DNA from: Cellulosimicrobium cellulans
Lineage (GTDB): Bacteria > Actinomycetota > Actinomycetes > Actinomycetales > Cellulomonadaceae
NCBI RefSeq assembly: GCF_024124905.1
Contig: NZ_JAMXST010000004.1
Coordinates: 124,001-188,000 of the forward strand
Reading direction: 5' to 3'
Length of the DNA: 64,000 nt
In this document: positions 39,000-53,089 of the stretch, piece by piece
How the letters are laid out: each line of letters starts with the position of its first letter
Numbering within the stretch: position 1 is the stretch's first letter
The notes under the pieces: model-generated
Told to the model about the DNA's origin: nothing
Database searches by the model: none
What the model saw: only the letters and a program-made list of their open reading frames with translations
Program-made: the position numbers and the translations under genes

Positions 39000-39072
39000 G
39001 GGGCTATGGCGCAGTTGGTAGCGCGTCTCGTTCGCAATGAGAAGGTCGGGGGTTCGAATCCCCCTAGCTCCA
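39000..39072 (+). tRNA. tRNA-Ala (anticodon CGC)
   Basis: Complete cloverleaf: acceptor GGGGCTA/TAGCTCC, D stem GCGC/GCGC, anticodon stem TCTCG/TGAGA around the loop TTCGCAA, T arm GGGGG-TTCGAAT-CCCCC. Anticodon CGC reads GCG. The block of unusual genes from 39.1 to 52.9 kb begins right after it. Confidence 0.95.
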
Positions 39073-39078
39073 CCCTTC

Positions 39079-39114
39079 GAAGGCCGTTGACCAGGACTCT
39101 GGTCAACGGCCTTC
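39079..39114 (+). terminator. Terminator of tRNA-Ala
   Basis: Perfect 15-bp stem (39079-39093 with 39100-39114) and six-base loop, seven bases after the tRNA. Confidence 0.75.
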
Positions 39115-39175
39115 AGCGTTCGCAACGGTTCTCAGGGGGTGAGAGCCACGGACACCGCCGGTGTCCGTGCGGGAA

Positions 39176-40537
39176 TCACGTGCGCGCGCGGCCGACCAGA
39201 GCGACGCCGAGGATCGAAACGAGGGTCGCGCCCAGCGCTTCCATCGCTCCATCGCTTGTCGAGGTGAGTGGCAGCTGGGGCAGGAGCAGCCGACAGCCGA
39301 CATAGCCGACGAGCGCGCCGAGCACGGCCCCGACGACCACGCCACGAAGGCGCCACCGTCGGCGCCCGGTCACCAGAACGCCGAGCAGGGCGCCAGGTAG
39401 GGGAAGAAGCAGCGCATGCGGGCCGTCCAGTGCGATGCCTCGTTCGGAGAGCCATCCGCTGAGGAAGGGGATGGTGAGGAGGGCGCTGACCCAGTATCCG
39501 CCGACGAGACCGAGGAGGACACCACCTGTGTTCCATCGTCGTGCCCGCTCCGGTCGGGTACGGGGGACAGCAGCGTCCTTCTCGTCAGGCGAGCGCTCGA
39601 CGGTGGCCTCGGTGCCCTTCTCGACGAGGCTTCTCAGCTTCTCGGCCAGCCCGCGCCCCTTGGGGTAGTACCTCGTGAGCGAGACGCGGCCGTACGCGCT
39701 GAAGTCGGCTGCACGGCGCGGCTCGGTGATCACCGTCACGGTCGTCGCCGTCGAGTGCTCGGCGTAGGCGCCGAAGTCCAGCCCGACGAGGAACTGGTCG
39801 AAGCTCGTCAGGGGGACGGGCTCCCAGCGTCCGTCGTCGCGGTGGATCAGCTTCCCGGCCGGAAACACCCCGTTCCCCTGCTCGGCGAAGACGAGCTCCT
39901 CCTTGCGCTCCTCCAGCACGAGGTCCCCGGTCGCCCGGAGCACCCAGCGGTACGTGGTGACGGTCTCCTCGCGGACGGACGAGTCCGTGGTGTCGAACCT
40001 GCTGAGGGCCGTCGTGAGCTCCCAGAACGCGGTGGCCCGCGCACGCTCGGGGACGGTCTCCACCAGTCGGTCGATGAGTGCCTGGATCTCGCCGGGCTGG
40101 TCGTCCCGCGGTTCGGACCAGTACTGCTCGACGTCCTGCGGGGTGGCCGCGACGCCGCGCCGGGTGCCGGTCCCACCGCACGCGGTGCAGCGCGGGGCCC
40201 GCGGGGCGGGGGCCGGGTCGTCGGGCCGGAACGACGTCGTGCTCGTCGGGAGCGTCTGCGTGCCGCTCCCGCCGCACGCACCGCACGGGGCGGTGAAGCG
40301 GGACGCGGCGTCACGACGCGCCGCTGCCCCGGCCGAGGTTCCGGCGGGCTCGACCGACATCTCCGTGCGGATCGACGCTGTCCCCCCGTGGCGCTCGACG
40401 GCGCGCACGAACGCGGACGCTCTCTTCTCCCTCGTGAAGCGTGGCGTCCCCGACGGGTCGACGCCGAACTCGCTCCTCAGCTCGGCCAGCGCCGCGTCGC
40501 GCGATCGCGGCGGGAGGGTGAAGTCGACGAGGTACAC
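39176..40537 (-). CDS. Membrane protein with DnaJ-like CxxCGGxGT zinc motifs
   Basis: 453 residues, no family recognised. Residues 1-60 form a small alpha/beta domain. Two CxxCxGxG-type repeats follow, CGACGGSGT near 84 and CTACGGTGT near 117, as in DnaJ zinc fingers but with two repeats rather than four. A soluble region (130-330) then leads to three or four membrane helices (GVLLGLVGGYWVSALLTIPF, ALLLPLPGALLGVLVTG and more) at the C-terminus. This suggests a membrane-anchored cytosolic sensor or substrate-binding protein. Its GTG start lies six bases behind the stop of a small zinc-ribbon gene, so the two form an operon headed by a TTCAG-N5-CTGAA site. Confidence 0.7.
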   Translation of the reverse strand: MYLVDFTLPPRSRDAALAELRSEFGVDPSGTPRFTREKRASAFVRAVERHGGTASIRTEMSVEPAGTSAGAAARRDAASRFTAPCGACGGSGTQTLPTSTTSFRPDDPAPAPRAPRCTACGGTGTRRGVAATPQDVEQYWSEPRDDQPGEIQALIDRLVETVPERARATAFWELTTALSRFDTTDSSVREETVTTYRWVLRATGDLVLEERKEELVFAEQGNGVFPAGKLIHRDDGRWEPVPLTSFDQFLVGLDFGAYAEHSTATTVTVITEPRRAADFSAYGRVSLTRYYPKGRGLAEKLRSLVEKGTEATVERSPDEKDAAVPRTRPERARRWNTGGVLLGLVGGYWVSALLTIPFLSGWLSERGIALDGPHALLLPLPGALLGVLVTGRRRWRLRGVVVGAVLGALVGYVGCRLLLPQLPLTSTSDGAMEALGATLVSILGVALVGRART

Positions 40538-40543
40538 GGGTGG

Positions 40544-40672
40544 CTAGCCCCACACGATCCCGCACACGGGGCACCGGACGAACGCCCCTTTGTTCGCGAT
40601 CTCCGTGCCGCAGCCGCGGCACACGTAGGCGGCGGGGGAACTCACCAGGGCAAAGTGCTCGAACATGATCAT
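40544..40672 (-). CDS. Small zinc-ribbon protein
   Basis: 42 residues: MIMFEHFALVSSPAAY then CRGCGTEIANKG and RCPVCGIVWG, two CxxC knuckles that should bind one zinc. The ATG at 40672 is chosen because GAGAGGA lies nine bases upstream. An earlier in-frame ATG at 40726 gives 60 residues but has no ribosome-binding site and would leave only about 26 bp between it and the operator-like palindrome at 40753-40767. Function unknown. It is co-transcribed with the DnaJ-motif membrane protein behind it. Confidence 0.65.
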   Translation of the reverse strand: MIMFEHFALVSSPAAYVCRGCGTEIANKGAFVRCPVCGIVWG

Positions 40673-40752
40673 GTCGTCGGTCCTCTCGTGGCTTTTCGGC
40701 TCGCTGTCGGGAACATGCTCGTCCATGCGCGGTTACCGGTCGGGGCGGCGTG

Positions 40753-40767
40753 TTCAGCGGTGCTGAA
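40753..40767 (-). promoter_or_regulatory. Palindromic operator candidate TTCAGCGGTGCTGAA, site 1
   Basis: One of three copies of TTCAG-N5-CTGAA in this region. It lies in the 47-101 bp gap between the end of the long leftward operon and the small zinc-ribbon gene, a natural place for an internal promoter. Confidence 0.7.
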
Positions 40768-40773
40768 AGCCGG

Positions 40774-41448
40774 CTATCGCGCGGGGTGGCCAGGGCTTCC
40801 GCGTCCCAGCCGACGGTGCAGCGCGACGAGCGCGGCGCCGAGCCCGAGCACGACGACGAAGAGCCCGGCCACGGCGCCCAGCACGGCAGTCCACCCGGCC
40901 TCGTGCACGTCGAGGAAGGGATAGGGGACGTGCGCCTGGCCCGCGAGGTCGAGGGGGAGCACGACCGCGAAGTACACGAGCGGCCACAGACACCAGCGCA
41001 GGGCTGTGCCGAACGTCCCGCGACGCCCTCGCTGTGGGCGCACGAGGTAGTCGGCGGTCGCGAGGACGGGCCCGACGCCGTGCAGCAGCACGTTCGCGAC
41101 CCGGACCCAGGCGTCGTCATGGGGCTGGATCCACGTCCCCGTCGGCGTCGCCGGCGCGATGACGGTCGCGAACACCAGGCCGGAGAGCACGACGCCCGAG
41201 GTCGCGGCCCCACGGGCGCCGTCGACCCACGCCCAGCCCGGACGGGCGGACGCCACGATCAGCGTCGCGGCGAGCAGGATCGCGGAGTCGACGGTGTAGT
41301 AGGTCAGAGCGGGGGCGGGGTCGGTGCCCTGGACCAGCTGGCACACGACGCCGACGACGAGCACGGCGACCGTCACGCCGCGCAACCACGCCCGACCCCG
41401 GTCGGGCGTCCGGGCGCGCGCCGTTGTGCCGACGTCGGACGCGGTCAC
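40774..41448 (-). CDS. Pr6Pr-like six-helix membrane protein
   Basis: 224 residues with six predicted membrane helices. LTYYTVDSAILLAATLIVA, FATVIAPATPTG, VLLHGVGPVLATADYLVRPQ and PLVYFAVVLPLDLAG match the Pr6Pr group of integral membrane proteins, in which conserved His and Asp residues lie in the membrane. Biochemical role unknown. The GTG at 41448 has GGAGG seven bases upstream and overlaps the stop of the alpha/beta hydrolase gene by four bases. Last gene of the seven-gene operon. Confidence 0.75.
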   Translation of the reverse strand: MTASDVGTTARARTPDRGRAWLRGVTVAVLVVGVVCQLVQGTDPAPALTYYTVDSAILLAATLIVASARPGWAWVDGARGAATSGVVLSGLVFATVIAPATPTGTWIQPHDDAWVRVANVLLHGVGPVLATADYLVRPQRGRRGTFGTALRWCLWPLVYFAVVLPLDLAGQAHVPYPFLDVHEAGWTAVLGAVAGLFVVVLGLGAALVALHRRLGRGSPGHPAR

Positions 41449-42332
41449 CCGTGGTCCTCCGCGACGTCGGCGACGAACCGGCCCAGACGCCGCACGCTCG
41501 GCAGGGAGTGCCACAGCGCGTGCGTCCCGTGCATCGTGAGCTCGTCGACGCGCCGCCCGGCGGACCGTGCCGCGTCCACGACGTCCGCGACCGCGCCGGG
41601 CAACGACAGACGGCTGTCCTTGCCGCGCACGACGACGACGTGGGTGGCGCCGCTCGCGACGACCTGCGCCCCGAGCCGGCCCGCTCGCAGCGCGTTGGCG
41701 AGCAGCAGCAGGTCGACCCGGTGGTGGTCCGGCGTGCTCGGTTCGGGTCGTCGGTCGGGCGGACCGACGGCGCCCGCGACGTCGTCGTTCTGGGCGAGCG
41801 CGTCGTCGACCAGGCCGTCCTCCGCGCGGGTGGCCCCGGCGAGGTCCAGCGGTCGCCACGGACGTCCGGCGACGGGCTCGACCAGGACCAGCAGAGGGAC
41901 CGGCGTGCCCGTGCCCTCCCGCAGCACGGAAGCGATCGCGGTGCCGATCGAGGCACCGAGGGAGTAGCCCAGGACCGCGGCGCGCGCGGAGCAGACCGAC
42001 GGCTCCGCCGTCGTGGCGGCCTGGAGCATGCGCCGCGCGACCGGACGGAAGTCCGACCGCGCGAGGAGCGCCCAGCGCTCGCGCGGGGTCAGCCGGGAGG
42101 CGTCCGCTCCGTGCCCGGGCGTCTGGACGACGACGAGGCGGGCGCGCAGCAGCGGGGCGAGCAGGCGAAACCGCTGGAGCTCGAACTCGTCGAGCCGGGC
42201 GGCGTACCCCAAGGCGACGACGAACGTGCGATCCGCGTTCACGGGGCTGACCACGGCGACGGGGAGCGGGCCGCCGCAGGTCGGGACGGTGCGGAGGGAG
42301 AACGTGACGTCCTCGGGGAGCACGGTCAGCAC
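41445..42332 (-). CDS. Alpha/beta hydrolase-fold protein
   Basis: 295 residues. The nucleophile elbow GYSLG sits in AAVLGYSLGASIGTAIAS (about 145-160). Before it are FVVALGYAARLDEFELQR and VVVQTPGHGADASRL, after it LLVLVEPVAGRPWRPLDL. A His in MHGTHALWHSLPSV near the C-terminus could complete the triad. The substrate is unknown. The GTG at 42332 begins one base after the stop of the receiver-like gene, and the frame continues upstream only as antisense-like low-complexity sequence. Fifth junction of the operon, so it should be made with the signalling proteins. Confidence 0.75.
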   Translation of the reverse strand: MLTVLPEDVTFSLRTVPTCGGPLPVAVVSPVNADRTFVVALGYAARLDEFELQRFRLLAPLLRARLVVVQTPGHGADASRLTPRERWALLARSDFRPVARRMLQAATTAEPSVCSARAAVLGYSLGASIGTAIASVLREGTGTPVPLLVLVEPVAGRPWRPLDLAGATRAEDGLVDDALAQNDDVAGAVGPPDRRPEPSTPDHHRVDLLLLANALRAGRLGAQVVASGATHVVVVRGKDSRLSLPGAVADVVDAARSAGRRVDELTMHGTHALWHSLPSVRRLGRFVADVAEDHG

Positions 42333-42333
42333 C

Positions 42334-43395
42334 TCATCGCCTCGCTGTTCCGGCGGGAGCACCGGGACCGGCCCGGAAGAGGTCGAGCGCCACCGAGACG
42401 TCCTCGGCGCGCCAGAACTCCTGGGTCTGGTCGAGCTCGTCGCGCAGGGCCCCTCGCACCGCGTCGCGGTCGTACCCGGCCTCGTTCCCGGCGCGGTCGC
42501 CGTCGAGGCCCAGGGGCCAGTCGTCGACGAGGTACTGGTCGTAGCAGGCCACGAAGTTCTTGACGCGCTGGTAGAGCCGACCGACGAGCCGGTCATGGAG
42601 CTGGCGGACCTTGTCGACGGTGACGGGCTCGACCGCGCGGGTCCGTCGGTTCGGCCGCAGCGCCCGCGAGATGAGCCCGACGCGTCGGTAGGCCTCCACG
42701 TCCTCGGAGAGCTTGTTCTCCTGGAGGACCCGCAACCACTGGTAGGCGTCGCTCCCGCGCCCCTCGGTCACCCAGCCCAGTTGGCGCCGGGCGTGCCGGA
42801 AGTACTCGAGAAGCTCGTCGAGAGCGTGCGCACCGTCTGTCACCCTCTCCTGGTCGACGCCGGCGTGCCCGAGCCTGCGCAGCTGCTCCGGCATCCCCTT
42901 GGGGCGGATGGAGAAGACCGGGACGCCGAACCACGACCACGCCGCGGCGGCGAAATAGCGGGACGTCTGTTCGTCGAGGTCGACGAAGGTGTAGAGCGCG
43001 GTGACGGGTCGGGCGCCGCGCGCCGCGACGTACTCCTCCGTGGCGAGGAGCCGGGTGAGGTGGAGCAGCACCCCGATCCCTGTGGAGAGCTCGACCTCCT
43101 CGACCCGTACGGCCGCACCGTCGGCTGGCGCGGGGTGCTCGACCGCCACGACGGGACCCAGCCCGCCGTACCGGTGGGTGTTCAGGCTGAAGTCGACGAG
43201 GATCACGTCGAGCTCGGCCAGGCTCGCCACCCCTCCCTCCTCGAGCGCCCGTACCAGCCGCTGCGCGCTGCTGTGGTGGACGACGTCGTACCGGGTGCTC
43301 GCGTCCCGGTCCTCGGTGTCCTTGACGACCGCCGCCACGATGTCGGCCTTGGCCTCCAGGTCGTCGACGAGCAGCACACGTCGGGTCCGGGTCAT
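42334..43395 (-). CDS. Receiver-like signalling protein with novel C-terminal domain
   Basis: 353 residues. The N-terminus RRVLLVDDLEAKADIVAAVV has the acidic pair Asp11-Asp12 of a response-regulator receiver, and VILVDFSLNTH offers Asp68 as phosphoacceptor. The 56-residue spacing is longer than the usual ~45, so there is an insertion. Residues 100-170 carry ATEEYVAARGARPVTALYTF, where the conserved Thr/Lys positions are not clear. The C-terminal half (180-353) is helical, without a recognised DNA-binding motif. The ATG overlaps the stop of the kinase-like gene by four bases (ATGA), so they are a likely pair. Confidence 0.72.
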   Translation of the reverse strand: MTRTRRVLLVDDLEAKADIVAAVVKDTEDRDASTRYDVVHHSSAQRLVRALEEGGVASLAELDVILVDFSLNTHRYGGLGPVVAVEHPAPADGAAVRVEEVELSTGIGVLLHLTRLLATEEYVAARGARPVTALYTFVDLDEQTSRYFAAAAWSWFGVPVFSIRPKGMPEQLRRLGHAGVDQERVTDGAHALDELLEYFRHARRQLGWVTEGRGSDAYQWLRVLQENKLSEDVEAYRRVGLISRALRPNRRTRAVEPVTVDKVRQLHDRLVGRLYQRVKNFVACYDQYLVDDWPLGLDGDRAGNEAGYDRDAVRGALRDELDQTQEFWRAEDVSVALDLFRAGPGAPAGTARR

Positions 43396-44846
43396 CGGTC
43401 GTCCTCCTCCATGTCGAGCAGCGAGCGGTACGTGTCAGGCCAGCGGGCCTCGATGGTCTTGCCTCCGGCCGGGCGAGGGACCTGGCGCAGCGTGCCGCCA
43501 CGGTCCGTCACGGTCGAGCGCACGTTCCGGAGGTTCCCTCGGGGGTTCTCCCACACGGCGTCGGGCACGAGGTCGAGCGCGTCCGTGACGGCGACGACCA
43601 CGGCGCCGTCGACCATGCGGACCGCGATCCGGAGCGTTCGCGACCTCCGTGGCGTGCCGGCGTCGTCGTACGCGTCGACCGCGTTGAGGGTCAGGGTGGA
43701 CACGACGTCCCGGGCGAAGTCCTTGTTGACCTTGTGCGGCACGCCGCCGGTGGTGCGCCGCGGGCCGGTGCCCGCGTCTCCTTCCGGACCGTCGACCAGC
43801 AGGTCCAGGTCGAGGTCCACCTGCACGCCGCGGGGTCCGCATGCCTGGCGGACGGTCGTGCGCAGGTCCGGGAGCAGGGACTCGTCGATGCTCAGACCGT
43901 CGCGGGCCTTGGCGTGCAGGTACTTGAAGTCCTCGACGAAGGCGGCGAGCCGGACGGCGTCGGCCGGGTCGACCTCCTCGACGGCCATCAGCCGTTCGAG
44001 GAGCCGCACCCGTGGGCTGACCACGTCGTGCAGCCCGCGGGCGAGCCGGGACGCGGCCTCGTCCTGCGCGTGCTTCGCCACGAGCCCGCCCGCGCCGACC
44101 GCGCGGTCGTGCTCGCGGGTGCGCAGGCCCAAGTAGGCCGCGGCGCCGCAGGAGAGGTAGGCGTAGGGCACGGCCGAGGCCGGCCAGGCGCCGATCGCGG
44201 TGGAGAGCGCCACGACGACCGCGGCGAGGACGACGAGCGCCGGCCAGGCTGCCCACCGAAGACTGCGCATCACCGTGCCCCCGCGGGAGAGCGCGGAGTA
44301 CGTCGTCGACTCGAGCAGCGGGCCCGCGCAGGCGGACGTCGCGTACAGGATCCCGACCAGGAAGGTGGCGACCTTCAGCCATCCCGTTGGGGCACCCGCC
44401 GTGGTGCCGAACGCGACGCCGAGCACGGTGGCCGCGGCAGCGACCCCGCCGAGGATCCCGGTCACGTTGAGCCAGCGCCGTTCGTAGGCGCCGCGCGCGA
44501 CGCCGCTCAGCGCGGCGTCCAGCCCGGCGACCGGCGCCCGCGCGGCGTCCCGCGCGCTCGACGCGCGCACGAGCGGCTCGAGCCTGACCTCGAGCACCCC
44601 CTGTACGACCGGGAGGGCGAGCAGCGCCCACGCCCACCACGCGACCGACGGCAGCGCGAGGTATCCCGTCGCCACGACCGCCGTCAGCGTCAGCCGGGTC
44701 AGGTAGGGGCGGATCCGGTCGTAGACGAACACTCGGCGGTGCGCGACCTGCCGGAACCAGTCCGACGACGGCGCGGGCGCGACGAGGTCCGCGAACGGCT
44801 GGACCCAGCGGCTGCGCCGGGGTCCGACGACGTCGAGAGTGATCAC
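43392..44846 (-). CDS. Membrane histidine-kinase-like protein
   Basis: 484 residues. Six or so membrane helices lie between about residues 45 and 240. The H-box-like RGLHDVVSPRVRLLERLMA follows with His273, then a helical linker and a C-terminal ATPase-like region. Its N-box is TLTLNAVDAYDDAG and its glycine-rich end is ENPRGNLRNVRSTVTDRGG, both recognisable but divergent from HATPase_c. It resembles the HisKA_3/LytS-type sensor kinases. Whether it binds ATP is uncertain. It has four-base overlaps with its neighbours on both sides and directly precedes the receiver-like protein, so a two-component pair is the simplest view. Confidence 0.7.
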   Translation of the reverse strand: MITLDVVGPRRSRWVQPFADLVAPAPSSDWFRQVAHRRVFVYDRIRPYLTRLTLTAVVATGYLALPSVAWWAWALLALPVVQGVLEVRLEPLVRASSARDAARAPVAGLDAALSGVARGAYERRWLNVTGILGGVAAAATVLGVAFGTTAGAPTGWLKVATFLVGILYATSACAGPLLESTTYSALSRGGTVMRSLRWAAWPALVVLAAVVVALSTAIGAWPASAVPYAYLSCGAAAYLGLRTREHDRAVGAGGLVAKHAQDEAASRLARGLHDVVSPRVRLLERLMAVEEVDPADAVRLAAFVEDFKYLHAKARDGLSIDESLLPDLRTTVRQACGPRGVQVDLDLDLLVDGPEGDAGTGPRRTTGGVPHKVNKDFARDVVSTLTLNAVDAYDDAGTPRRSRTLRIAVRMVDGAVVVAVTDALDLVPDAVWENPRGNLRNVRSTVTDRGGTLRQVPRPAGGKTIEARWPDTYRSLLDMEEDDR

Positions 44847-45679
44847 GCCTGCTCCTCACGGCGCCCGCGGGCGCGCTGCCCAAAGGGATTGCTGGGGTGC
44901 CGGGGACTGGTGATACCGGTCGTCGCCGGGTCCCCGAGACCCACGGCGATCTCCTGTCGGACGAGCTGCTCGAGCTCCGCCGCGAAGGCGGCGTTGCTCG
45001 TGGTGGCAATGATGGCATCCGCGGCGAGGCGGTCGATCTCCGCGGTGCGCTTGTGGTGGTTGGCGAGCAGGTGCTGGTAGGACGCCTCGTGCTCGGTGAG
45101 CTCGTCCTGGCACGCCGTCAGCTCGGCGACCGCGCGCCGGCCGGCGGTGTAGGCGTCGTTGCGCCAGTGGTAGAGGTCGCCGAACGTGAGCAGGCCGCAC
45201 AGCACGTACACGGCCAGGAAGACCCCGGCCGCCAGGGCGTCGAAGCCGCTCTCCGCCGGCTGCGGGACGGCGCCCTCGTAGGCGACGGTCGTCGCGACGT
45301 CCGACACCTGCAGGCGCAGACGCATGAGCAGGAGGGCGAGCGCCGCCCACGCGGCGAGCAGCAGGACCGGGAGCAGGAGCGGCGCCCAGGACCCGGGATG
45401 GTTGCCGGTCGCGCCGCGCCAGGTCCAGCCCGAGACGCCGGCCGTGAGCAGCGCGACCAGCCCCAGGCCCAGCGCCGTGAGCCAGGTCATGACCGGGTCG
45501 TGGCCCATCGACCGGGCGACGGCCGGGTACATGACCAGGACGTCGACGAGCGTGATCGCGACCGCGAGGACGACGAGCCCGACCGGGGCGAGCCGTGACC
45601 GGGGTCCCAGCCCGGCGAGGGCCGGGTCGGACCAGCGCAGGCGGTGGACGCGCGCGGACTCCGTCGGTGTCGTGCTCAT
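44843..45679 (-). CDS. Four-helix membrane protein with C-terminal coiled coil
   Basis: 278 residues, no family recognised. Four membrane helices: LAPVGLVVLAVAITLVDVLV, WLTALGLGLVALLTAGVSG, WAPLLLPVLLLAAWAALALL and AAGVFLAVYVLCGLLTFGDL. A cytoplasmic helical stretch follows (about 185-255, RRAVAELTACQDELTEHEAS to FAAELEQLVRQEI) that should form a coiled coil. The tail is Arg-rich. It overlaps both neighbours by four bases and probably forms a membrane complex with the two coiled-coil proteins encoded before it. Confidence 0.65.
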   Translation of the reverse strand: MSTTPTESARVHRLRWSDPALAGLGPRSRLAPVGLVVLAVAITLVDVLVMYPAVARSMGHDPVMTWLTALGLGLVALLTAGVSGWTWRGATGNHPGSWAPLLLPVLLLAAWAALALLLMRLRLQVSDVATTVAYEGAVPQPAESGFDALAAGVFLAVYVLCGLLTFGDLYHWRNDAYTAGRRAVAELTACQDELTEHEASYQHLLANHHKRTAEIDRLAADAIIATTSNAAFAAELEQLVRQEIAVGLGDPATTGITSPRHPSNPFGQRARGRREEQA

Positions 45680-46353
45680 GGGCGGTTCTCCTTCTCCAGC
45701 TCGTGGAACAGGTCGTCGGGGCTCAGGAACGGCTCCGGACCGGCGAACGGATCAGGCGCGAAGCCGGGCTCGGGCACGCCGCGGGGCGCCACGGACGGAG
45801 CCGTCGCCGCGTCGATCGCCTCGCGCAGGTCGACGGCGGCGGGTGCCGTGGGCGCGCGGTGGGGCCGAGCGTGGCGTGCCGGGTCGTAGGCGTCGCTGCC
45901 GGTCAGCACCGCGCGCCATGCCGTGACGGAGGCGGTGAGCTCGGCGTCGCGGGTGCGCAGCCGCGCGACCGAGGCCTGGGCGCGCGTCAGATCCTCGAGC
46001 TCCATCGCGCGCAGCAGGGCCGACGTCACGACCCGGGACGCGTGCTCGCGGCGCACCGCCTGGTCCCACCCCTGCCGCAGCGTGTCGATGCGGGCGTCGA
46101 GGAAGTCGGCGGTCAGCTCGTCGAGCGCGCGGGTCGCGAGCGCCTCGTGGACCCACCCCCGGACCTGCTCGACGACCGCGAGCCGGTCCACGGGCGCGGT
46201 CGCCGCGGCGTGGTCCAGGGCGGAGTACTGGTCCGGGCGCTCGACGTGGGTCGTCGTGCCGCGGCGCCGGTCGGCGAGCGCGCCGAGGTCAACCCGACGG
46301 GTGAGGGTCTGCGCGGTCGGGGAGTGCTGCGGTCGTCGCTTCCTACCGAACAT
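45676..46353 (-). CDS. Hydrophilic helical protein, unknown function
   Basis: 225 residues, no membrane segment. A helical middle (about 55-140, VEQVRGWVHEALATRALDEL and RVVTSALLRAMELEDLTRAQ) is flanked by a basic N-terminus (MFGRKRRP) and an acidic, Pro/Phe-rich C-terminus ending LSPDDLFHELEKENRP. The latter looks like a short interaction peptide. Start and stop overlap neighbours by 11 and 4 bases. Confidence 0.6.
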   Translation of the reverse strand: MFGRKRRPQHSPTAQTLTRRVDLGALADRRRGTTTHVERPDQYSALDHAAATAPVDRLAVVEQVRGWVHEALATRALDELTADFLDARIDTLRQGWDQAVRREHASRVVTSALLRAMELEDLTRAQASVARLRTRDAELTASVTAWRAVLTGSDAYDPARHARPHRAPTAPAAVDLREAIDAATAPSVAPRGVPEPGFAPDPFAGPEPFLSPDDLFHELEKENRP

Positions 46354-47116
46354 CGGTGTGCTTCTTCTGCTCCGGACCGGGGGTGGCCGTCAGGCTCGGT
46401 GGGGCGTCTGCGTCGCGCAGGCGTGCGCCCAGGCCGTCCGGCAACCAGGGGCAGGGCCGTCCGGTCCACGTGGCTTCCGACGCCTCCCAGGGGGAGGGCC
46501 ACGGCGTCGTCCCGTCGGCGGGGGCGACGCGCAGCGCGCGGGCGTACGTCTGCAGCCTGCGGGTGTAGTACCAGCGCAGCCGGTCGGACACCTCGCGGGC
46601 GAGCTCGATCTCCTCGAGCAGCAGCGACCGCAGCCGCACGCACTCGTCGAGCGCGTCCGCGCGGCGGGCCCGGACCTGGTCCGCGCGGGCGCTCGCGGCG
46701 GCACGAGCCGCGGCGTGCTCGCGTGCCCGACGAGAGGCGACCTGCTCGGCGGACAGGTGCACCTCGCCGCCGCCGGACCCGGAGCGTGGCGCCGGGAGGA
46801 CGGCGGCACGCGCCTCCAGCTCGGCCAGCTCCCGGTCCAGGCGTTCGACCTGGCCGAAGGCGCGGTGGAGCCCGTCGATCGCCGGGGCCAAACGGTCGGT
46901 GGTGGCCGACAGCTGCCGGAGGTCGTTCTCCCGCCAGGTCGCGTCCAGGCGCGCGGGCCACGGGAGGTGCCGTGCCTCGACGCCGAGGGGGGCCGCGCGA
47001 CGGCGGTCGGTGCGGCCGGCCATCCGGTCGGCCAGCCGCAGCAGGGGCCCGTAGGACCGCGCGTGCTCGACCGACCGACGGGCCCGGGGTGCCGGGGGAG
47101 GCGTCCTGCTCGTCAT
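46343..47116 (-). CDS. Coiled-coil protein, first gene of the operon
   Basis: 257 residues, soluble. Long helices at about 75-115 (ENDLRQLSATTDRLAPAIDG, FGQVERLDRELAELEARAAV) and 130-200 (SAEQVASRRAREHAAARAAA, RLRSLLLEEIELAREVSDRL) have heptad character. A Trp/Pro-rich region follows (TPWPSPWEASEATWTGRPCP). No family recognised. The ATG at 47116 has GAGGAG nine bases upstream and is the first start after the divergent regulatory region with operator site 2. Confidence 0.62.
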   Translation of the reverse strand: MTSRTPPPAPRARRSVEHARSYGPLLRLADRMAGRTDRRRAAPLGVEARHLPWPARLDATWRENDLRQLSATTDRLAPAIDGLHRAFGQVERLDRELAELEARAAVLPAPRSGSGGGEVHLSAEQVASRRAREHAAARAAASARADQVRARRADALDECVRLRSLLLEEIELAREVSDRLRWYYTRRLQTYARALRVAPADGTTPWPSPWEASEATWTGRPCPWLPDGLGARLRDADAPPSLTATPGPEQKKHTDVR

Positions 47117-47206
47117 GGTGGGCTCCTCGTGCTCGGACGTCGTGCTCGGGACGTCGTGACGAGATGAACTGTGCCGGGAGCGCACGGCCCCCGACCACAC
47201 CCCTGT

Positions 47207-47221
47207 TTCAGCGGTGCTGAA
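47207..47221. promoter_or_regulatory. Palindromic operator candidate TTCAGCGGTGCTGAA, site 2
   Basis: Identical in all 15 bases to site 1 (40753-40767). It lies between the divergent seven-gene operon (start 47116) and the OmpA-domain lipoprotein gene (start 47329), where one protein could control both directions. Confidence 0.75.
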
Positions 47222-47328
47222 CCTCGGGCGTCGATCCGGTCCCCGGTCCCGTGGTTGCCTCGGTGCCCCGGCCCGCACCGGGTCGGGGCGGCGCCGCCGC
47301 CTGGTCCCACCGCTCGAAAGGCGACCTC

Positions 47329-48519
47329 ATGCCACTCGTCTCTCGCCCTCGTACCGCGGCGACCGTGCTCGGTCTGAGCGTGGTCACCGCCGTGGCCCTC
47401 ACGGGGTGCGCCACCGGTGCGGCCTCGTCCGGCGCCCCCGACGTCGACTGCCTCCACGGCGGCTCGCTCGCCCTGGTCGTCCCGGTCCACGCCGGTGCCC
47501 AGGCGCCGGGCGTCCCGCCCGAGTGGGACTGCGCGCTCGACGCGGCGATCCGGCGGTCGGCGCCGATCAGCGTGGTGACCGTGGAGGGGAACCCTCAGGT
47601 GGTCGTCTCGGGCTTCCGGGCCGACGTGAACACGTCCAACGAGCTCGTCGCGGCCGACGACGTCACGGCCGCGAAGAACGTGGTCGTCGGCGCCGTCTCG
47701 GGCGCGACCGCGACCTCCGACGGCGTCGACCTGCTCGCCGCGCTCGCGCTGGCGGCTGACCTGGCGCCCGGTGGCCAGGTCATGTCGCTGGACAACGGCG
47801 CGACGGACTCCGGGGTCGTCCGGACCGTCGAGGACGGGATGACCACGGTCGTCGACCCGGCCGACGTCGCCACGCTGGTCGTCGACTCCTCCTCGTGCCC
47901 GTCGGTCGAAGGGGCGCGCGTCGAGCTGTACGGGCTCGGGTACCAGGTCGCCCCGGCCGAGCCGCTGTCGCCGCGCCAGCACGACCGGCTCGAGCAGGTC
48001 TGGCGGGCCACGCTGGAGGCGTGCGGCGCCGAGGTCGCCGTGGTCGCGCTGCCGCGGACCGGTGACGGGCCGACGACGGCGCGCACGGCGCGGGCGGTCA
48101 CGCCTGAGGAGGATCCCGCGATGCCGACGCCTGCCGCCGGAGCGGCGGCGTGCGAGGCGGTGCTGCCCGACGCCGTCGTCGGGTTCGTCGCGGACGAGGC
48201 GACCTTCCTCGACCCGGCGCGCTCGATCGAGGTGATCGCGGACGCCGCGGACCGGGTAGCGGCGTGCCCGGGCACGATCGAGGTCGTCGGGACCACGAGC
48301 TCGGCGGGCACGCCGGACGGGCGCGAGCGCCTGTCGACGCAGCGGGCCGAGGCGGTCCGCGCGATCCTCGCGGACCGGCTCGGGGTGCCCGAGTCCGACG
48401 TCGTCGCGCGCGGGCTCGGGTTCGACCGCGACGAGTGCGTCGAGGACCGCCCGGACGGCGTGCTCGACCCGGTCCTGGCCGCCCAGAACCGCAAGGTCGT
48501 CATCCGGGTGGGTGCATGA
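47329..48519 (+). CDS. Secreted lipoprotein with C-terminal OmpA-like domain
   Basis: 396 residues. The lipoprotein signal (VLGLSVVTAVALTGC) puts Cys at about residue 26. The middle part (40-260) resembles a ligand-binding or vWA-like domain with strands SLALVVPVHAGAQAPG and KNVVVGAVSGATATSDGVDL; this is uncertain. Residues about 280-396 follow the OmpA/MotB peptidoglycan-binding pattern: FVADEATFLDPARSIEVIAD, IEVVGTTSSAGTPDGRERLS, QRAEAVRAILADRLGV and NRKVVIRV. In Gram-positive bacteria such domains can bind the wall while the lipid anchors the membrane. It is divergent from the signalling operon and shares operator site 2. Confidence 0.8.
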   Translation: MPLVSRPRTAATVLGLSVVTAVALTGCATGAASSGAPDVDCLHGGSLALVVPVHAGAQAPGVPPEWDCALDAAIRRSAPISVVTVEGNPQVVVSGFRADVNTSNELVAADDVTAAKNVVVGAVSGATATSDGVDLLAALALAADLAPGGQVMSLDNGATDSGVVRTVEDGMTTVVDPADVATLVVDSSSCPSVEGARVELYGLGYQVAPAEPLSPRQHDRLEQVWRATLEACGAEVAVVALPRTGDGPTTARTARAVTPEEDPAMPTPAAGAAACEAVLPDAVVGFVADEATFLDPARSIEVIADAADRVAACPGTIEVVGTTSSAGTPDGRERLSTQRAEAVRAILADRLGVPESDVVARGLGFDRDECVEDRPDGVLDPVLAAQNRKVVIRVGA

Positions 48520-48566
48520 TCGGCAGTCGCGACGTCGCCGACGCCTTCTCGTCGGTACGTAGGTGC

Positions 48567-48581
48567 TTCAGAACCGCTGAA
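48567..48581 (+). promoter_or_regulatory. Palindromic operator candidate TTCAG-AACCG-CTGAA, site 3
   Basis: Read on the other strand it is TTCAGCGGTTCTGAA, differing from sites 1 and 2 at one central base. It lies 70-84 bp before the Cys-rich gene at 48651. Confidence 0.7.
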
Positions 48582-48650
48582 CGAGGGGCCGTGCGCCGAC
48601 GGGTGCGGCGCGACAGGATGGGATCCGTCCCACGGGAGAAGGTGGTGACG

Positions 48651-50225
48651 ATGGCACACGCCTGCGAGAAGTCGGGCGCGCAGAGGTGCGCGTGGTGCAA
48701 GACGGCCGAGAAGGACGGGTTCTCGACCCGCACGTGCTCGTACTACGGCACGTGCGACGAGCGTCCCGTCTCGAGCCGTCCGGAACCGGTCCCGCGCGGC
48801 CGGGCTCCGGGTCCGGTGACGGGCACGTGCGCAGCAGTTCCGGTGGACGCGATGGGGAGGACGAACATGAGCTCGGACGTCGTCGAGCAGGTCGAGAGCC
48901 TGATGGTCAAGACCGACCGCGGCATGCTCACGCCCGACGAGCTCTTCCAGGAGGCCGGGGACGCCCTCGCCCGGGCTGCGGACGTGCGGGACACCCGGCT
49001 CTGCGAGGCCGTCGCACGCCTCGCGCTCAGCCCCGATCTCCCGGCGGAGCACGTCGTCCCGCTCGCACGGTCCACCTTCCTGTGGACCCGGCTCGACTGG
49101 GGGCGTGCCGAGACCGGCGAGGAGGTGCTCGACGCCGCGAGACGCGCGCTCCTCGCGCGGGTCGAGGACGACGTCGCCGACGCCGACCCCGTGACCGTGG
49201 CGACACTCGTCGGCGGGTTCCCGTCCGTCTGGTGCCCGCCCGTCTGGATCGACCGAGCGATGGAGTCCGATCTCGGGCCGGAGGCACGAGCGACCGCCAA
49301 CGCGGCGCTGCTCAGGACCGTGGTCGACCACCGCGGTACCGAGTACGCGTTCCGGCACCTGGTCGAGCCGTTCCTCGACACGGCGACGCGTCATGGCGTC
49401 GACCTGGCGCTGAGCGCGCACGAGCACGTGGGGTGGAGGGCGCACCGGGTCCCGCGGGCGCGCCGGGCGCTGCGGGCCTACCTCCTGGCGTCCGTCGAGG
49501 GGGACGAACCCGGCGCCGTGCCGCTGGCCACCCGGCTGTCGATCGACCTCGACGACGCGGCCGCCGTCGAGGTCGTCCACCGCGTCACGCGCACCGACCC
49601 CGCGGCGTGGCGCGAGGACGCGTCCGTGCTCGCCTTCGTCCTGTGGGTGGGTGGCAGGCGCGACGCCGCAGGCCGGGTGCTCGAGGAGTTCGACGCGCAC
49701 GCGTGCAGCGGGGGGTGGGCGTGCGTCGCACGGCACAGCCTCGCCGACTACCTCCGGATGAGCTCAGGGGTCGTACCGCCCCAGGTCGTCGCGTCGACCC
49801 GTGGTGCACAGGAGTACCGGACCGGGATAGCGAGCGTCGGGGCGCTCGTCGGCAGGCTCGCCCTCATGCGCCGGGACGCGTGCGCGGAGGTCGGCGACGC
49901 GGAGCAGGCGAGGCTGTCCGGCGTCGCCGTCCTGCGCTACCACGGCTACCGCGAGTACGACCTGCACCTCCAAGCCGCCGACCTCGAGTTCGACGTGCGT
50001 CTCGTCGACCGCGTCGCGGTCACCCCGGACGAGCTCTTCGCGACCCGCGTCGCCGTCGACGCGTGTCCGCCGACGCCGGACGACGGGTTCCCGCGCCTGG
50101 TCGAGGGCGTCGTCCTCTACTCGCGTCCGAGCTCGGCAGCGACGACGAGCAACGGGCGCCGCACCGCGTCCTCGACAGGTGCTCCGATCTCGGCGAAGGG
50201 CGTGTCCTCGTCGAACCCGCCGTAG
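48651..50225 (+). CDS. Helical protein with Cys-rich N-terminal knuckle, unknown function
   Basis: 524 residues. The first 40 carry five cysteines (MAHACEK, RCAWCKTAEKDG, RTCSYYGTC), which look like a zinc site. After a Pro/Arg linker, a large all-helical part (75-480) with repeated Ala/Leu/Arg helices follows, reminiscent of HEAT/TPR-like proteins, but no family is recognised. A second ATG at 48867 has an excellent Shine-Dalgarno (GGGGAGG), so a 452-residue form may also be made. The last ~30 residues overlap the opposite-strand gene by 109 bp and look non-conserved. Confidence 0.62.
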   Translation: MAHACEKSGAQRCAWCKTAEKDGFSTRTCSYYGTCDERPVSSRPEPVPRGRAPGPVTGTCAAVPVDAMGRTNMSSDVVEQVESLMVKTDRGMLTPDELFQEAGDALARAADVRDTRLCEAVARLALSPDLPAEHVVPLARSTFLWTRLDWGRAETGEEVLDAARRALLARVEDDVADADPVTVATLVGGFPSVWCPPVWIDRAMESDLGPEARATANAALLRTVVDHRGTEYAFRHLVEPFLDTATRHGVDLALSAHEHVGWRAHRVPRARRALRAYLLASVEGDEPGAVPLATRLSIDLDDAAAVEVVHRVTRTDPAAWREDASVLAFVLWVGGRRDAAGRVLEEFDAHACSGGWACVARHSLADYLRMSSGVVPPQVVASTRGAQEYRTGIASVGALVGRLALMRRDACAEVGDAEQARLSGVAVLRYHGYREYDLHLQAADLEFDVRLVDRVAVTPDELFATRVAVDACPPTPDDGFPRLVEGVVLYSRPSSAATTSNGRRTASSTGAPISAKGVSSSNPP

Positions 50226-50605
50226 ACGCAGCGCTCGTAGGACGCGAGGAGCCGGCCGGCGGCGAGCAGCCCGGCCTGTGCCGGGTGGTCCCGCCAGGCA
50301 TCGCTCAGAGCCGCCATCGCACGCCTCTGGTCGTCGAGACTCCACCCGTCGGGGTACTCGAGACCGCGCGGGTACGGCCGGAAGTCGCCGGGGAAGAGCA
50401 TCGTGCCGGTGCAGCCGAGCGGGTCGAGCGCAGAGTAGGCGGGCCGAGGCCCGTGCTCGACGACGAACGTCACCGGCCCCTGCGAGGTCTCGACCACGAG
50501 CGGGTCGGGGAGCCAGGCGACGATCTTCTCGCTCAGCGCCCTGGCCTGGCGCGGTGTCCGGGGGATCTCGAGGTCCGCGAGGCTCAGCGGCGGGGTCGGC
50601 GGCAC
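50117..50605 (-). CDS. Hypothetical protein
   Basis: 162 residues, soluble. It reads smoothly (SLADLEIPRTPRQARALSEK, DPLVVETSQGPVTFVVEHGP, GTMLFPGDFRPYPRGLEYPD, PVEDAVRRPLLVVAAELGRE) with normal codon use, but I recognise no family. The GTG at 50605 lacks a ribosome-binding site and could be leaderless. It converges on the Cys-rich gene with a 109-bp overlap, which favours this strand as the better frame in that stretch. Confidence 0.6.
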   Translation of the reverse strand: MPPTPPLSLADLEIPRTPRQARALSEKIVAWLPDPLVVETSQGPVTFVVEHGPRPAYSALDPLGCTGTMLFPGDFRPYPRGLEYPDGWSLDDQRRAMAALSDAWRDHPAQAGLLAAGRLLASYERCVYGGFDEDTPFAEIGAPVEDAVRRPLLVVAAELGRE

Positions 50606-50797
50606 ACACCCAGTGTGCCGGGACGCACGACCTCCGTCGTCGTGGCCGAGCTCCACCCGTGGAATTCACCCGACGAAGCGGTGCCCGCCGAACGAGGACG
50701 ACGGTACGTTCCCCCCGCTCCGTGAGGTCGCGACCGTCGCGGCCGGAACGAACGATCGGTTCGCCCCAGGCGGTGCGCCGGAACCCGAGGAGGTCGC

Positions 50798-51631
50798 ATG
50801 TCCGCTGCGCCAGAGTTCGACACGCTCGACGAGTTCGTCGGGGACCTCCGCGCGCTGCGCGCCCGGGCGGGAGACCCCACCCTGGAAGCCTTGGCCCGCC
50901 GCACCGGCGTCTCCAAGAGCGTCCTTTCCGACGCGCTCGCCGGCAAGCGCCTGCCGACCGCCCGTACGGTCGAGGCACTGGTTCGAGAGCTCGGAGGGGA
51001 CGTCGGGGTGTTCGTGGCCCGACGCTCCGACCTGGATACGACGAGCCGTTCGAGCGCGGGTGCCCCGACGAACCACCCGACGGCGTCACCGTCGGTGCCG
51101 GTGCGCATGGTGCGGCGGACCACGTCGACCTGGCTCGCGGTGGCGGCAGGCCTCGTGGGCGTCGTGGTCGGTGCGGTCGGTGCCGCAGTGGTCGGCCTGG
51201 TGACGGAGCCGGCGGGAGTTGCCGAGACGGCGTCGCCACCCGCCGTCGCCGAGAGCAGCTCAGCACGGATCACCGTGGCGACCGGCGAGGACCCGGCGGC
51301 GACCGAGTGCGTCGAGGACGCAGCGGTGGTGGCCGCCGAGGACCGCACGAACGACACGTTGCTGGAGATCGTCTGGTCGGACGCGTGCCAGGCCGGCTGG
51401 GCACGGATCACGCGGTACGACGGCAAGGCGGCCGGCAACGTCGTCTCTGCGAGCATCTTCCGAGAGGTGGCCCCGGCGGGCGCCGACCGGCAGGACACCA
51501 CCGAGCCCGGCGTCCAGGGGGCGTACACGACGCTGCTCGTCCGCCCCACTCCCGACACCCGCGTGTGCGCCGTCGGAGAGATCACTCTCGCCGGTGAGCA
51601 CATCTCCTTGGGCGAGCCGATCTGCCTCTAG
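50798..51631 (+). CDS. XRE-type HTH protein with membrane helix and DUF2690-like domain
   Basis: 277 residues. The N-terminal helix-turn-helix (DEFVGDLRALRARAGDPTLE, RTGVSKSVLSDALAGKRLP) covers 1-70. A linker, one membrane helix near 110-135 (WLAVAAGLVGVVVGAVGAAV) and an extracellular domain follow. ECVEDAAVVAAEDRTNDTLL then EIVWSDACQAGWARITRYDG matches the DUF2690 pattern common in Streptomyces. This would join a cytoplasmic DNA-binding head to an outside domain. AGGAGG precedes the ATG. It is a candidate regulator of the surrounding genes, but this is inference. Confidence 0.82.
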   Translation: MSAAPEFDTLDEFVGDLRALRARAGDPTLEALARRTGVSKSVLSDALAGKRLPTARTVEALVRELGGDVGVFVARRSDLDTTSRSSAGAPTNHPTASPSVPVRMVRRTTSTWLAVAAGLVGVVVGAVGAAVVGLVTEPAGVAETASPPAVAESSSARITVATGEDPAATECVEDAAVVAAEDRTNDTLLEIVWSDACQAGWARITRYDGKAAGNVVSASIFREVAPAGADRQDTTEPGVQGAYTTLLVRPTPDTRVCAVGEITLAGEHISLGEPICL

Positions 51632-51850
51632 GGAAGGGTGAGAACGCGGCTGGCGGCGCCCTCGAGACCGTTGAGATCTCGGCCTTCCGGACGTTTCCGG
51701 ATGCCGGACGGAACGCTCGGACGATTGAGGTCTTCTGGGTCTCGAGCCGATTCGTGAAGATGTGAGCGACCCGAGGTCCAGGTCGAGATCTAGGACCCGC
51801 CGGCTCGCCCTCCAGGCGGTCGGTAGGTCCCACGAGACGGGAGCAAGACG

Positions 51851-51997
51851 ATGACGTGTACCAAGTGCGGCAGGCCTCTCCACGACTGCCCGGACTGCAA
51901 CGGCGGGCGTGCCAGCGGTCTGCTCGGCAGGCTCACGTGCTCGACCTGCCGCGATACCGGCGCGCTGTGCCGGGAGCACGGCGGTCACTGGAAGTGA
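51851..51997 (+). CDS. Small Cys-rich zinc-ribbon protein
   Basis: 48 residues: MTCTKCGRPLHDCPDCNGG, then GLLGRLTCSTCRDTGALC and EHGGHWK. Seven cysteines and two histidines in CxxC pairs, one of DnaJ-like CPDCNGG form, indicate two zinc knuckles. GGGAG lies about seven bases upstream of the ATG. It is followed 52 bp later by the YbjN-like gene on the same strand. The 219-bp gap before it (51632-51850) holds short inverted repeats around 51680-51710 and probably its promoter. Confidence 0.6.
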   Translation: MTCTKCGRPLHDCPDCNGGRASGLLGRLTCSTCRDTGALCREHGGHWK

Positions 51998-52049
51998 CGT
52001 CGTCCCCCCGCCCCTGGACCCCCGCGACAGCTCCGAGAGAGGACCCCAC

Positions 52050-52439
52050 GTGACCACCTGGTCCGACGTCACACGGTTCGTGCACACCAACTACACGGCG
52101 GAGAGCATCAACGACGCCACCATCAAGCTGGTCTTCGACACCGGGAACCTGCGCTCGCAGCTCGTCTTCGTCGAGCACACCTGGAACGACACGGGGGCGG
52201 ACTGGGTGAAGGTCAACTCGCCCATCGGCACGATCGCCGAGGTCGACGTCCGTCGTGCCACCGAGATCGTCGGCGGGATGCTCGTCGGCGGGATCATGAG
52301 CGACGGCGAGTACGTCTACGTGACCAACGCGATGCCCCTGCGGAACCTCGACGCGAACGAGATCACCGAGCCCCTGGTCAGGGTGACGACCATCGCCGAC
52401 AGCATCGAGGCCGAGCTTCTCGGCAAGGACACGGTCTGA
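52050..52439 (+). CDS. YbjN-like (type III chaperone-fold) protein
   Basis: 129 residues. The alternating beta pattern (IKLVFDTGNLRSQLVFVEHT, DWVKVNSPIGTIAEVDVRRA, GEYVYVTNAMPLRNLDANEI) fits the YbjN/CesT peptide-binding chaperone-like fold, common as small accessory proteins in actinobacteria. The partner is unknown. The GTG at 52050 has GAGAGAGGA upstream. It sits between the small zinc-ribbon gene and another small gene, all rightward. Confidence 0.72.
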   Translation: MTTWSDVTRFVHTNYTAESINDATIKLVFDTGNLRSQLVFVEHTWNDTGADWVKVNSPIGTIAEVDVRRATEIVGGMLVGGIMSDGEYVYVTNAMPLRNLDANEITEPLVRVTTIADSIEAELLGKDTV

Positions 52440-52521
52440 TCAGACGTGTCCCCGGGCGGGGACGGCCGAGAGGTGCCCACGACGACGTGGGTGCCCGACA
52501 GAAGAGAAGGAGAGCAGTCCC

Positions 52522-52893
52522 GTGGGAATGAAGCAAGAAGAGAGCGTGTACCGCTCGCGCCTCGACGTGGGGTCGCTCCGGCAGGTCCTGCGTGGCGCGT
52601 GCGGGAAGGCGGAGATCAGCCCAGTCCAGTTCGACGCGCTCGACGACCCGCCCGACTTCTCGATCCTGGCCGAGAAGCGAGGCTTGATTGGGGGAGACTC
52701 GGCGATCCAGGTGCACATCAACGACAACGGTGATCACCGCCTGGTCCTGCTCGTCGCCCTCGGGGACTCCGGGTTCGCACGTGCGATGCAGGGAGCCAGG
52801 AACTCTCTCAGCTTCGGGGGATCCAAGAAGTTCGCGGCGACCGTCGCGGAAGCGATCCGCTCCGCCGACCCGTCGTTCCAGCAGGTCGGCTGA
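52522..52893 (+). CDS. Hypothetical small alpha/beta protein
   Basis: 123 residues, no family recognised. RSRLDVGSLRQVLRGACGKA, then QVHINDNGDHRLVLLVALGD and FGGSKKFAATVAEAIRSADP suggest a compact fold with a central sheet. GTG 52522 with GGAG about nine bases upstream; ATG 52528 is an alternative. Its 5' end is less GC-rich than the surroundings. Last gene of the unusual block. Confidence 0.6.
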   Translation: MGMKQEESVYRSRLDVGSLRQVLRGACGKAEISPVQFDALDDPPDFSILAEKRGLIGGDSAIQVHINDNGDHRLVLLVALGDSGFARAMQGARNSLSFGGSKKFAATVAEAIRSADPSFQQVG

Positions 52894-53089
52894 CGCGAGC
52901 GGGGCAGCCCGTGCACGTCGCGCGGGCCGCCCGTGTACCGCGCTGCTTGCTCAAGGGAGGTTCGGTTCGCGGCACCTTGCCGGGACGGCGTCGTGGCCGA
53001 CGCGCGGCTGTCGCCCGGGCAGCGTGCGTCTGCCGGGCACGTCCGCCGAGGGGGGGAGCGGGACCGCCCGCCGCCCTCGGCGCGACCCT

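Follow-up and report, generated by a model that had tools for sequence, protein, structure and literature searches.

Dyad target sites are usual for response regulators of the NarL/LuxR type. Inverted repeats also mark the mobile phage-defence island controlled by the WYL regulator BrxR, where they lie before the island's own genes, and the regulator is encoded by the island itself. There, R-BOX1 was shown to bind and a second box, R-BOX2, is putative, and the boxes are made by 11-bp repeats with a 5-bp spacer (PMC9122601). In conflict systems of the MoxR-vWA kind, iSTAND systems include OmpA effectors (PMC7159879). A stretch of 64,000 nucleotides from Cellulosimicrobium cellulans (assembly GCF_024124905.1, contig NZ_JAMXST010000004.1, positions 124,001 to 188,000), here called the window, carries a mobile island in which inverted repeats likewise lie before the island's own genes. 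These are three palindromes of the form TTCAG-N5-CTGAA, and they are likely, with a probability of about 0.85, to be operators of one island-encoded regulon.

Site 1 (40753..40767, minus strand) reads TTCAGCACCGCTGAA toward the gene of the small protein znr60. Site 2 (47207..47221, minus strand) reads TTCAGCACCGCTGAA toward a seven-gene operon headed by c257, and lies between c257 and the divergent ompA gene. The sequence TTCAGCGGTGCTGAA is identical at 40753-40767 and 47207-47221. Site 3 (48567..48581, plus strand) reads TTCAGAACCGCTGAA toward a Cys-rich gene; its opposite strand, TTCAGCGGTTCTGAA, is one base off from the other two sites. The original prediction had described two identical 15-mers and a third with one change, placed in gaps before transcription units. 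The sequence bears this out, and all three sites fall between likely genes.

Exact copies of TTCAG-N5-CTGAA number three in the whole genome (4,672,389 bases, 10 contigs), all at these sites and within 7.8 kb, and the reversed motif, taken as control, is found in 0 copies. The genome-wide scan was for exact matches only; a scan allowing up to one mismatch was made in the window, and returned the same three sites with nothing added (expected 0.16). The probability that three random points in 4.67 Mb land within 7.8 kb is ~8e-6. In a regulon under a single regulator the site is confined to promoters of co-regulated units, and this is the position of 3/3 exact genome copies. A motif frequent in the genome, and not enriched upstream of these genes, had been named as the result that would speak against a regulon. 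The motif is not frequent, and the earlier opinion that a chance repeat is very unlikely holds. No exact copy was found in 15 other genomes of the genus or in Cellulomonas composti, and three were found in the conspecific genome G098. At least one match is present in 64 of 200 genomes of the family, and at the look-alike places fetched from G006, G002, G093 and G027, all single palindromes, the motif is not repeated. Every palindrome with 5-bp arms and spacers of 3-12 was also scored against 60 shuffles. TTCAG with a spacer of 5 obtained the top score in the window (8.59) as in the G098 stretch (9.13), and both scores were reached by 0/60 shuffles. A LexA-type box was dropped as a candidate, its spacing being different.

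The palindromes would be operator sites for a regulator carried on the island itself, and three units may be under its control: znr60 with a gene for a protein of 453 amino acids (aa), the divergent seven-gene operon and ompA, and a small Cys-rich gene with a 452-aa gene. As the regulator, the putative response regulator encoded at 42334-43395 (353 aa) is the most likely protein; it would be phosphorylated by the membrane kinase encoded at 43392-44846. If the response regulator is in charge, the system would be autoregulated, by activation or by repression. It is somewhat probable that the regulator is an island-encoded protein other than the XRE-DUF2690 protein (50798..51631, plus strand) suggested in the original prediction. 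Given an island regulon, the response regulator has slightly less than an even chance of being the one, the XRE protein is a doubtful choice, and other island proteins would account for the remainder. The idea of one block under one regulator is supported in part. The exact motif is exclusive to the block, and the regulon reading is well supported for the island and its three units; the binding of a protein at the sites, the choice of that protein and the function of the system are inferred.

The core of the island, made by the seven-gene operon and the OmpA lipoprotein gene, recurs in other lineages. In C. composti (G157) each of the seven operon genes has a relative, as has ompA, at 34-65% identity. 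In G606, a genome of the same class and a different order, tblastn detected 7/8 core genes (kinase 29%, ompA 36%, c257 43%), and at the place of the response regulator there is a 325-aa open reading frame (ORF) with 26% aligned identity and the acidic residues kept. In G606 the palindrome TGTTG-N8-CAACA ranks first in the exhaustive scan, with a score reached by 0/60 shuffles. Four local copies lie within 7 kb of each other, in front of ompA, c225, c257 and a small gene containing Cys and His codons; they represent 4/11 genome copies (reversed control, 4), and the chance of such clustering is ~1e-9. The C. composti genome has two exact copies of TGAACGCGGTTYM, one preceding c257 and the other a 48-aa CxxC...CxxC gene, and five further places match if one mismatch is allowed. 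This motif was selected from the locus and was missed by the exhaustive scan, and is therefore suggestive only as an operator-like site. Equivalent promoters in the relatives correspond in position and differ in sequence, the case being strong in G606 and weak in C. composti. Each lineage's set has one copy before a small Cys-containing gene. A common plan may be proposed, in which the core operon and the small Cys-containing gene have one operator-like site each, the sequence differing per lineage. Divergently from the operator-like motifs of C. composti lie the gene of a HerA-like ATPase and a 203-aa ORF, which by eye is NYN-like and has no match in Pfam (L008 800-3337 and 11256-11867).

The island (~14 kb, 39092..53068) lies directly 3' of tRNA-Ala(CGC) (39000-39074) and contains all three sites. 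BLAST rows over 150 bp, from which its limits were read, end at window positions 39091/39074 and restart at 53089/53069 in the congeners G049 and G088. The matching flanks are 902 bp apart in G049 and 324 bp apart in G088, against ~14 kb in the window, which therefore holds an island after the tRNA gene. In a third congener, G112, the left flank alone aligned within the stretch taken. From 39039 to just beyond ompA the match between G098 and the window is 99.3%, and G098 has ~3.5 kb extra between ompA and site 3 (L007 12079-15585), with three genes without counterpart in the window. These encode a 374-aa protein, overlapping the ompA stop and assigned to no Pfam family at E <= 0.1, a MoxR-like AAA+ ATPase (AAA_5, E 6.4e-8), and a DUF2201/vWA-like protein (E 2.6e-17). 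Of the 374-aa gene the window has kept the opening codons, in a remnant (48516..48566, plus strand) that includes the deletion junction relative to G098, a shared GGTGC just left of site 3. The window is therefore, most simply, a deletion derivative, having apparently lost the 374-aa, MoxR and vWA genes by microhomology. A relative of the 374-aa gene is found at the contig edge in C. composti. At site 3, 10/10 arm residues are kept between window and G098, against 3/5 spacer residues and 54/69 in the 69 bp downstream. G098 hosts another element of ~8 kb at the same tRNA gene (L073 5412-11101 and L007 1-2602), in which an integrase-like ORF was noticed by eye. Window 39039-39121 aligns on both sides of this element, so that the 3' part of the tRNA gene is present twice, and the gene for tRNA-Ala(CGC) has the look of a hotspot for insertions.

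Some results limit the weight of the motif scores. One in 100 shuffles of the window likewise reaches three near-matches (<=1 mismatch). The exhaustive scan gives 8.27 to a codon-driven palindrome in the window, near the 8.59 of TTCAG-5; among 12 other loci, one with repeated coding units reaches 10.7, and the best score otherwise is 7.7. Real sequence is a harsher control than shuffles, and more weight was therefore placed on genome-wide exclusivity and promoter position. These two features, with the 0/60 shuffles of the exhaustive scan, make a chance repeat or a terminator-like RNA hairpin the least probable of all readings, even counting the one shuffle above and the 6-bp stem with a 3-nt loop that can be drawn at sites 1 and 2; a terminator was dropped, as no T-run follows the stems. 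Scarcely more probable is a role of the palindromes in recombination or as cassette boundaries: the homology with G098 breaks at 48562-48569, adjoining site 3, but the junction is in the GGTGC microhomology next to the palindrome, both genomes have site 3 intact, and the alignment is continuous through sites 1 and 2. As binding by any island protein is a prediction, the sites might instead serve a regulator of the host, with its gene elsewhere than on the island; this is improbable, as scans for the exact motif revealed no further target for such a regulator, in the rest of the genome as in the 15 congeners.

The main rival, unlikely yet well above the others, sees the sites as operators of the XRE-DUF2690 protein, a membrane-anchored one-component regulator with a presumed cytoplasmic helix-turn-helix (HTH), one transmembrane helix and a presumed outer DUF2690 sensor part. 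The domains (HTH_31, E 2.6e-9; HTH_3, 1.9e-7; DUF2690, 2.1e-8) and a single predicted transmembrane helix (114-132) are those of such a regulator, and an odd-length 15-bp dyad fits an XRE dimer. Matches to the protein (E <= 0.001) were found in 11/17 genomes of the genus, full length only in the 2 bearing the sites. The protein of the original proposal is thus restricted to the island, but co-occurrence within one species amounts to one acquisition only, and the promoter region of the XRE gene is without an exact site. By tblastn no relative was found in the C. composti and G606 stretches, both with operator-like sites, and the two-component pair shared by these lineages is therefore at least as good a candidate for the island regulon.

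Fold predictions suggest the two-component pair. The 484-aa protein may be a DosS/DesK-like histidine kinase and the 353-aa protein a response regulator, both according to low-confidence models and both missed by Pfam. The model of the former features a DHp His and the GHKL catalytic fold; Pfam HATPase_c and HisKA were not detected, no family matching at E <= 1, and the fold carries the case. The model of the latter features a receiver fold with an acidic pocket, and aligns weakly to RcsB over 3-334; Pfam and NCBIfam gave no DNA-binding output domain for this protein. Foldseek gave no match to the receiver model at E <= 0.001. Among PDB sequences the kinase profile obtained three chance-level matches and the receiver profile none. 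The G606 receiver protein is without a recognised HTH. A separate 95-aa LuxR-type HTH protein (L048 16570-16857; GerE, E 4.1e-8) overlaps the c257 end in that genome.

Genes of the seven-gene operon are all on the minus strand. Next to c257 (257 aa, 46343..47116) reside c225 (225 aa, 45676..46353), without convincing family match, and the gene of a 278-aa membrane protein (44843..45679); all three have relatives in C. composti and G606. The membrane histidine-kinase-like protein (43392..44846) has an invariant His273, and the response-regulator-like protein (42334..43395), with a helical C-terminal part, invariant D11, D12 and D68, in 3/3 aligned sequences each. An alpha/beta-hydrolase-like protein (41445..42335), with weak family matches only and relatives in C. 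composti and G606, and a Pr6Pr family membrane protein (40774..41451; NCBIfam NF038065, E 2.6e-17, above cut-off) complete the operon. On the same strand are encoded znr60 (60 aa, zinc-ribbon-like, 40544..40726), with family matches below cut-off and an uncertain start codon, and the 453-aa protein (39176..40537), in which two CxxCxGxG-like motifs were noticed by eye and transmembrane helices are predicted at the C-terminal end. The OmpA-domain lipoprotein (47329..48519, plus strand; PF00691, E 3e-8) features a lipobox-like LTGC by eye. The 524-aa ORF (48651..50225, plus strand), first taken as a single Cys-rich protein, is probably a pair of genes: its Cys-rich beginning corresponds in G098 to a 36-aa ORF stopping at TAG, with a 452-aa ORF behind it. 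Relatives were found in 2/200 family genomes, both of the same species. A 179-aa ORF (50117..50656, minus strand) matches no Pfam family. The genes had been described as lacking recognised function; this no longer holds in full, a kinase, a response regulator and, in G098, a MoxR-vWA module being recognisable.

The core is rare in the collections searched. The kinase was found in 3/200 family genomes, and its profile in 1/396 sampled genomes of the order, the window's own. A three-row kinase profile matched 9/298 genomes of the order of G606, full length in G606 alone; G858 and G964, fetched from the other eight, do not contain the window proteins. The OmpA protein is present in 2/17 genus genomes, and its profile matched 70/394 class genomes, most of the matches listed covering the OmpA-domain end only; the core was found in G606 alone of six such genomes fetched. 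In 72,556 plasmid records the kinase had no match, and the OmpA part three distant ones (28-33% identity) in Nocardia and Rhodococcus; no annotated kinase was seen in the two of these three plasmids that were inspected. On the Rhodococcus plasmid p4 (L078 8220-11074) an OmpA lipoprotein relative is paired with an NYN-domain gene, and genes with TPR and CHAT domains are nearby. No kinase relative was found in 105 pattern-matching stretches of viral contigs, and the one found among at least 597 such stretches listed from genome contigs is that of C. composti. A narrow open-access literature search returned no description of the core and nothing for Pr6Pr or for DUF2201 with MoxR; DUF2690 was met only in a paper unrelated by title.

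The OmpA-domain lipoprotein, the membrane proteins, the membrane kinase and the MoxR-vWA module of G098 suggest a function in sensing at the envelope, possibly during conflict with other cells or phages. The HerA-like ATPase in the C. composti neighbourhood, similar to mad8 (E 5.5e-20), leans toward conflict and proves nothing. None of 10 window proteins matched a PADLOC model below E 0.05, and the G098 MoxR protein gave partial AAA matches only (E 0.0017, 0.003). A tentative view, given somewhat less than even odds, is that of a previously undescribed, horizontally moving actinobacterial system for envelope signalling, perhaps for conflict, whose central parts are an OmpA lipoprotein, a response regulator and a divergent kinase. 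The layout of its promoters would be kept, with a small Cys-rich protein among the products under common control, and operator sequence and DNA-binding partner swapped between lineages. If so, lineage-specific operators would insulate each copy from other copies and from the host. A block of nameless genes becomes a testable regulon, in which defined candidates can be named for the operators, the sensor kinase and the response regulator, and natural versions of one system with different operators may be useful to study how mobile systems are insulated from the host and from each other.

Compared to the BrxR island, the palindromes feature shorter arms (5 bp, with N5), no WYL protein was recognised, and a defence function of this island would be conjecture. 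By model, the kinase catalytic domain is similar to DosS/DesK and the receiver to RcsB, as in two-component systems with NarL/LuxR-type regulators; unlike these, the 353-aa protein has no recognisable LuxR HTH, and the LuxR-type HTH of G606 is a separate protein. Among vWA-associated effectors no histidine kinase is reported, and the name DUF2201 is absent from the main text of the paper on these systems (PMC7159879). None of the third components of MoxR-vWA systems (VMAP, iSTAND, FtsH, beta-propeller) was recognised, and the module is absent from the window. The resemblance to MoxR-vWA conflict systems lies in G098 only, where a MoxR-like AAA+ gene and a DUF2201/vWA-like gene are found beside that of the OmpA lipoprotein.
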